A stretch of 64,000 bases of DNA from Campylobacter bilis. Its GTDB lineage: Bacteria; Campylobacterota; Campylobacteria; Campylobacterales; Campylobacteraceae. The notes beneath the pieces were generated by a model that did not search any database, was not told the origin of the DNA, and saw nothing but the letters and a program-made list of their open reading frames with translations. Within the stretch, counting starts at the first letter, position 1, and the number at the start of each line of letters is the position of its first letter. Of the stretch, positions 45,308-48,690 are shown piece by piece. The translations under genes were made by a program, and so were the position numbers. The DNA is taken from NCBI RefSeq assembly GCF_016806695.1, contig NZ_WUED01000002.1, positions 1 through 64,000 of the forward strand, given 5' to 3'.

Positions 45308-46993
<1,686 letters not shown>

Positions 46994-47009: not shown

Positions 47010-47190
47010 AACCCAAACAGCCGTTTATAAAGATCGACTCCAAAAAGTCAAAGAAAACCCCTAGGCGATTTTTAAAGGCTGCAACTTCTCGCTTTTTTCA
47101 AAGCTCAAACGATGCCACAGAACACAGTAAATCGCACGATCGCGGTTAATAAAAATGTGTTGAATCACTTTAATTACAAACTGTTTAGGC
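47010..47190 (-). ncRNA. ssrS: Probable 6S RNA
   Basis: A 181-base non-coding stretch on the minus strand, richer in G/C than its surroundings. Its ends pair: CCTAAACAG near the 5' end with CTGTTTGGG near the 3' end gives nine pairs with one G-U, the closing stem expected of 6S RNA. Inner pieces such as AACCGCGATCGTGCG, TCTGTGGCATCG and AAAAAAGCGAGAAGTTGC can fold further into a long rod. A TATAAT -10 lies seven bases upstream, and purD follows within 20 bases. 6S RNA mimics an open promoter and binds the sigma-70 polymerase in stationary phase. I rely on position and stem, not on a family-model search. Confidence 0.72.
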
Positions 47191-47196
47191 CTTTAA

Positions 47197-47202
47197 ATTA
47201 TA
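47197..47202 (-). promoter_or_regulatory. -10 box of the 6S RNA/purD transcript
   Basis: TATAAT on the minus strand (TTATAATTTAAAGGCC) puts a start site near 47190, at the edge of the closing stem of the proposed 6S RNA. Confidence 0.6.
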
Positions 47203-47229: not shown

Positions 47230-48690
47230 TTAAATCAGTTTAAATTTGGTTTTTCCTGATTTATCAAAATGCTTTCCTTGCAAAATAATATCTGCTACAT
47301 TTTCCCAAACATGTTTTTCATCAATATAAACCATATCGAAGGTATTATCGCGCATTAAGGATTGATAGTTGACTTTTTTAGGTGCGTATTTTACAAGATA
47401 GTAAGGGTTTTGGGTAAAGTTTTCAATTTTTAATTTACAAAGTAAATTAAGATCTGAAGTTACAACTAGAAATTTTTTTCTTTGTTCTTTTGTGATTTTT
47501 TGGATATATACTAAAAGTTTTTGATCAAAAGGATTTAAAGAGGATTTATTTAAGCGACTTAAATAATGTTCTGCAAAAGAAATAGAACAAAAGGAATTTT
47601 CTATATTACTCATAGTAAAATAAGAATTTTTCACGCCTGAAGATTTTAAAGATAAATGCCAAATTTTCACATCCATTATTGTTGCGCATAAATTCAAACC
47701 TGTAACAATTTTTTTAAAGAGTTTTTCGCGTGAAAGCTTAAAAGCATTTTCAAAAATATTGTAATTTTTTTTATAAAAGTCTTCCCGTATAGCACTAAGT
47801 CTTTTAAGACTTGTTTTATAATATTGGGCTTCTTTTTGCAATTTGGCTAGTTTTTCTTGGCGTGCTTTGAGTTTTTCAGGATCGGTGTTGCTTGCATTGC
47901 TTTTAAGATTGATTTCAGATTGTAAGGTTTTCATTTGTGCTTCAAGCGAAGCTAGACGGTTATTGCGAGTGTCTATAGTAGCTACTAAGGCTTGATAATG
48001 GCATTGTAAGGATAAAAAGGTTTCATGGAAAATTTTCGTGATATTAGGCTTTCTGTCAGCTGTCATTTGTTTGTAGGAATTTTCTAAATGCATCATAATG
48101 CTTTTTAGAACATTAAATTGGGTTTGATCTATACTATTATCCATAAAAATCAAAGTATCATAAGCTTTAAATAAAAATCTTTTTAGTATTAAATAATCAA
48201 GTATGCAAGGAATTTCTTTTTCATCTTGAAGATTAGCTTGTAGTGTTTCTACAGACAAAATTTCATGGGCAAAATATTTTTGTATGGCTTGAGGTATGGT
48301 AAAAGAAAGGGGAATTTTTTCTATAGTATCAAAGTCTGTGCTTCGATAAAGTTCTGTTATATAAGCACTTCTTCTTGAGTTTTGTAAGTCTTCTAATTCA
48401 TCATCATTATCAGTCTTCCAAAAATCATGTTCTGTGATAAAATCCCCTTCTTTAAATTCTTGAAATTTTGAAGGCTTTATGCTTGTAATGGTTTTGCTTG
48501 TTTGATTGGCTTTGCCATCTTCTGATTTATTCTCGCTTAGAAGAGTTCTAAATTCTACAAGCATACCTACACTAGGCATACTTTTTTTATCATTCCAAAT
48601 TTGACGATTGAAATCAAAAAAAGTATTAGCAGAGTTTGCGACAGTTCCACGTCCTGTAGAATCCATATAAATAGCTATTTTTCCATGCAT
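47230..48690 (-). CDS. Conserved hypothetical with cold-shock-like N-terminus and coiled coil
   Basis: 486 residues; I recognise it only as the protein found here in C. jejuni (Cj1249). The first 50 residues, MHGKIAIYMDSTGRGTVANS onwards to VGMLVEFR, have the spacing of a cold-shock/OB nucleic-acid-binding domain. A helical middle contains a coiled coil at about 243-300 (RLASLEAQMKTLQSEINLK, then KLKARQEKLAKLQKEAQYYK). The end (KKFLVVTSDLNLLCKLKIEN ... FDMVYIDEK) has the alternation of a receiver-like domain but without a clear phosphorylation site. No signal peptide or membrane helix. Its transcript ends just before or runs into the 6S region. Confidence 0.6.
   Translation of the reverse strand: MHGKIAIYMDSTGRGTVANSANTFFDFNRQIWNDKKSMPSVGMLVEFRTLLSENKSEDGKANQTSKTITSIKPSKFQEFKEGDFITEHDFWKTDNDDELEDLQNSRRSAYITELYRSTDFDTIEKIPLSFTIPQAIQKYFAHEILSVETLQANLQDEKEIPCILDYLILKRFLFKAYDTLIFMDNSIDQTQFNVLKSIMMHLENSYKQMTADRKPNITKIFHETFLSLQCHYQALVATIDTRNNRLASLEAQMKTLQSEINLKSNASNTDPEKLKARQEKLAKLQKEAQYYKTSLKRLSAIREDFYKKNYNIFENAFKLSREKLFKKIVTGLNLCATIMDVKIWHLSLKSSGVKNSYFTMSNIENSFCSISFAEHYLSRLNKSSLNPFDQKLLVYIQKITKEQRKKFLVVTSDLNLLCKLKIENFTQNPYYLVKYAPKKVNYQSLMRDNTFDMVYIDEKHVWENVADIILQGKHFDKSGKTKFKLI

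Follow-up and report, generated by a model that had tools for sequence, protein, structure and literature searches.

A 6S RNA gene directly upstream of purD in Campylobacter bilis and its relation to the Rfam purD RNA motif

In the window, which is the whole 64,000-nucleotide stretch of Campylobacter bilis DNA analysed here, guaA is followed by the gene for a 486-aa protein, a 6S RNA gene, purD, and the genes for an RDD-family protein and a 683-aa protein. Read on the minus strand from 47202 to 46982, the locus consists of a TATAAT box, then GGCCTAAACAG...CGGCTGTTTGGGT, then TTACAAAGGAGATGTAA, and then the ATG of purD at 46993, with a Shine-Dalgarno sequence (AAAGGAG) within 47006-46998. The features are collected in Table 1. 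The 5' end of the RNA is predicted at 47191-47190 and the 3' end near 47011; by analogy with the 185-nt RNA of C. jejuni, the latter may lie up to a few bases further on. The 486-aa protein between guaA and the RNA gene (window 47230-48690, minus strand) has no Pfam family above the cut-off, and a GrpE-like stretch that scores below it is perhaps a coiled coil. The 683-aa protein beyond the RDD-family protein is also without a Pfam match.

Table 1. Positions of the 6S RNA gene, its parts and the adjoining purD gene in the window.
Feature	Position	Strand	Basis or remark
6S RNA gene (ssrS), ~181 nt	47011..47191	-	Rfam match, promoter box, covariation, homology; C. jejuni orthologue (PMC3847290)
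TATAAT -10 box of the 6S promoter	47197..47202	-	Sequence; TANAAT in orthologous loci
Closing stem, 5' arm (GCCTAAACAG), begins at 47190, one bulged base	47177..47190	-	Alignment A1, columns 2-15
Conserved 5'-side block of the central bubble (TTCAACACATTTTTATTAACC); likely template of the pRNA	47144..47164	-	Conserved in A1 and A2; aligned to the RF00013 bubble strand through L094
RF01069 (purD RNA motif) match	47011..47137	-	Rfam search; part of the 6S RNA modelled by RF01069
Small 3'-side hairpin of the central bubble (A2 helix 6)	47034..47052	-	Alignment A2
Closing stem, 3' arm (CGGCTGTTTGGGT)	47011..47023	-	Alignment A1, columns 213-225
purD (phosphoribosylamine-glycine ligase)	45743..46993	-	Pfam GARS domains; 17 nt 3' of the 6S 3' arm

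6S RNA is a promoter-mimicking RNA that binds RNA polymerase, and a pRNA templated on the 6S RNA releases the polymerase. The original prediction assigned this identity to a 181-base stretch because of its pairing ends, a TATAAT box and local GC enrichment, and the minus strand carries all of these features. The pairing of the 5' and 3' ends has an energy of -16.2 kcal/mol, which is equalled by only 3 of 18,234 sampled 181-nt stretches from both strands of the window. The GC content is 39%, against 31% for the whole window, and about 4% of 181-nt stretches reach this value. Folding of the 181-nt stretch as a single sequence gives a z of only -1.45, which is weak and not decisive alone. The convincing evidence for the element is covariation and homology rather than the single-sequence fold.

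The only Rfam family that matches the element is RF01069, the "purD RNA motif" (111.2 bits, E 4.3e-21, gathering score 41). There is one copy in this genome, and the motif is near-universal in the phylum: of 153 family genomes 146 have it, as do 376 of the 397 phylum genomes sampled. Matches in three genomes (G158, G225 and G157; L098-L100) had E values above 1; they appeared to be due to chance and were excluded. In C. bilis the match leaves the first 54 nt of the predicted 6S RNA uncovered. Taken by its name and its filing in Rfam as Cis-reg, the motif would make the element a cis-acting, riboswitch-like leader of purD. A shorter version of the C. jejuni RNA had indeed been read earlier as a purine riboswitch (PMC3847290), and of the 93 orthologous loci 87 have purD downstream.

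The structure found 5' of the motif argues against such a leader. At the 93 orthologous loci, an arm complementary to the 3' end of RF01069 was found upstream of the motif. The mean energy of the arm duplex is -17.4 kcal/mol, compared with -8.4 kcal/mol after shuffling of the upstream region, and in 90 of the loci a TANAAT box stands 0-13 nt before the 5' arm. In an alignment of 61 phylum representatives (A1), 96.8% of the cells of the closing stem are paired, and sliding the partner lowers this to 30-48%. Eight of its 13 pairs have changed on both sides, with 119 double-change cells compared with 40 in shuffles. The stem is outside the base-paired part of RF01069, yet it is conserved in the 61 sequences. 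Conserved structure therefore continues past the 5' edge of the motif and is closed by covarying pairs of its own, and the RNA has the closing stem, joining the two ends and maintained by compensatory change, by which a 6S RNA is recognized. The full fold in an alignment of 22 family members (A2) has six helices, made up of the closing stem, an apical stem divided into several parts and, at the 3' side of the bubble, a small hairpin; it is 94.6% paired, and 25 pairs have double changes. The consensus structure and pair counts also give a large central bubble followed by an apical stem, as expected of 6S RNA. The block conserved at the 5' side of this bubble is a likely template of the pRNA.

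The original prediction had named the Rfam 6S model, RF00013, as a means of verification. Searched against this genome, the model gives no match, even at E 10. At an orthologous locus of a distant member of the Campylobacterota (L094), RF00013 matches over the full length (45.2 bits, E 3.4e-8). This match takes in both arms of the closing stem and all that lies between them, including the RF01069 match. Two other loci, L072 (genome G283) and L066 (genome G172), have RF00013 matches at the position of RF01069 with E values of 3e-4 to 5e-4. The two models coincide at 1436-1613 of L094, 1437-1639 of L072 and 1596-1797 of L066. In two more genomes of the family of L094, RF00013 matches were found somewhere in the genome (G351, E 3.4e-8; G415, E 6.9e-6). 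No RF00013 match in the tested Campylobacterota reaches the gathering score of 46.4 bits, the closest being 45.5 and 45.2. The formal test is thus narrowly missed in the relatives, but position, length and structure coincide. A match to this model is in any case a means of detection and not a biological property of 6S RNA. That both models match the same locus in L094, L072 and L066 shows the purD motif to be a 6S RNA truncated at its 5' end and filed as a cis-regulator. It lacks the 5' part of the RNA, including the 5' arm of the closing stem.

A full-length RF00013 match at the same locus in relatives is a further argument against a purD leader. So is the retention of the RNA in 6 of the 93 loci where no purD is found just downstream (L037, L046, L081, L093, L094 and L095). 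In three loci from other genera of the same family (L048, L049 and L050), strong intrinsic terminators lie between the 6S 3' arm and purD. The C. jejuni counterpart, a 185-nt RNA upstream of purD (cj1250), was confirmed by Northern blot and has a 6S-like fold (PMC3847290). Among ncRNAs only rRNA and tRNA exceed it in abundance, and it has a 13-nt antisense pRNA (PMC3847290), neither of which favors a leader. We rejected the purine riboswitch or cis-regulator of purD, since the structure is separate and self-closing and is present without an adjacent purD in those six loci. We regard the leader reading as extremely improbable.

We conclude with high confidence that this Campylobacter species, a close relative of C. 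jejuni, has here its only 6S RNA gene, with a predicted sigma-70 promoter of its own, and that the product would be an RNA polymerase-binding promoter mimic with probable run-on into purD. The sequence, the promoter motif, the covarying structure, the synteny and the RF00013 matches of orthologues are observed, and the 185-nt RNA and the 13-nt pRNA are published for C. jejuni. The identification from sequence alone was correct. The promoter box and the length fit a discrete RNA of ~160-200 nt expressed from its own sigma-70 promoter, and the RNA itself has been shown in C. jejuni (PMC3847290). The original prediction had staked the identity on a covariance match or a discrete RNA, and on a closing stem conserved in related strains. 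It stands in spite of the negative RF00013 search of this genome, because the RNA exists in C. jejuni and the stem is conserved.

The 6S RNA would be transcribed from its own sigma-70 promoter and would adopt a long hairpin in which the closing stem leads to an open central bubble and this to an apical stem. It may then act as 6S RNAs are known to do, mimicking an open promoter and binding sigma-70 RNA polymerase, and it would template a short pRNA that frees the polymerase. Since the 6S RNA has no terminator of its own and purD follows 17 nt on, transcripts most likely continue past the 6S RNA into purD, and we infer that the 3' end is formed by processing or factor-dependent termination.

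The original prediction also held that purD begins less than 20 bases from the RNA and that the 6S 3' end and purD expression are coupled. The first point agrees with the 17-nt gap. For the second, the anatomy is as proposed and read-through is probable. No intrinsic terminator was found in the 17-nt gap, and none was found between the 6S RNA and purD in any of 32 loci of the genus, where the gap between the 3' arm and purD is 14-26 nt in 31 loci and 165 nt in one. A promoter scan gave a weak promoter-like pair at 47011-46983, but it is implausible as a purD promoter because the second hexamer overlaps the purD start. Since the gap has neither a terminator nor a plausible purD promoter, read-through is the simplest route to purD transcription. 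A promoter inside the 6S gene is a possible alternative source.

The same anatomy, with its tight spacing kept across the genus, could make the 6S RNA and purD one regulated unit, with transcription of the 6S gene imposing growth-phase control on purine synthesis. This would add to the 6S identity and not replace it. Some regulation is conceivable, as one C. jejuni study reports CjNC130, which it calls the 6S homologue, to be lower in vivo (PMC5447181). However, the Northern blot of C. jejuni 6S RNA gave no significant change over exponential growth phases or acid exposure (PMC3847290), so that the growth-phase tie to purine synthesis put forward at the outset finds no backing there. Coupling is also not conserved elsewhere in the phylum. 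Outside the genus the gaps are longer (median 34 nt) and terminator-like hairpins occur in 5 loci, of which L048-L050 have the clearest. Because of these gaps and terminators, and because purD is not adjacent in six loci, tight coupling is not a phylum-wide feature of the RNA. In those six loci the linkage appears to have been lost or never formed. Overall, we consider the regulated unit improbable. It is likewise doubtful that the 6S promoter is the main purD promoter in the genus Campylobacter. If it were, one promoter together with cutting at the 6S 3' end would set both the abundance of the RNA and an early step of purine synthesis.

Our analysis confirms that the Rfam purD motif and the 6S RNA of Campylobacterota are one thing. 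RF01069 is the 6S RNA minus its 5' part, and therefore automatic annotation labels 6S RNA as a purD cis-regulator in Campylobacterota. This is the only point worth carrying forward from what is otherwise an ordinary copy. A 6S RNA at purD is already known from the same place in C. jejuni and H. pylori, since the C. jejuni counterpart locus gives a Northern-confirmed 6S RNA with a pRNA.

Among known systems, RF01069 resembles the element in matching its 3' two thirds and differs in spanning only that part. The C. jejuni 6S RNA shares with the window copy the locus before purD, the promoter, the fold type and about 90% identity. In one C. jejuni genome, strain 414, the same region is 90.2% identical and PurD is 92% identical. 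The two differ in sequence only, the window copy being known here from its sequence. H. pylori also has a 6S RNA upstream of purD, from an earlier study cited in PMC3847290, and is alike in this position and in architecture; by the account given there, it differs by significant sequence divergence and another upstream gene. The RF00013 6S / SsrS RNA, of the E. coli ssrS-ygfA type, shares the arrangement of a closing stem, then a bubble, then an apical stem. Orthologous loci of relatives match its model over the full length, whereas the copy in this genome is too diverged for it, and the downstream gene is ygfA in E. coli and purD here.
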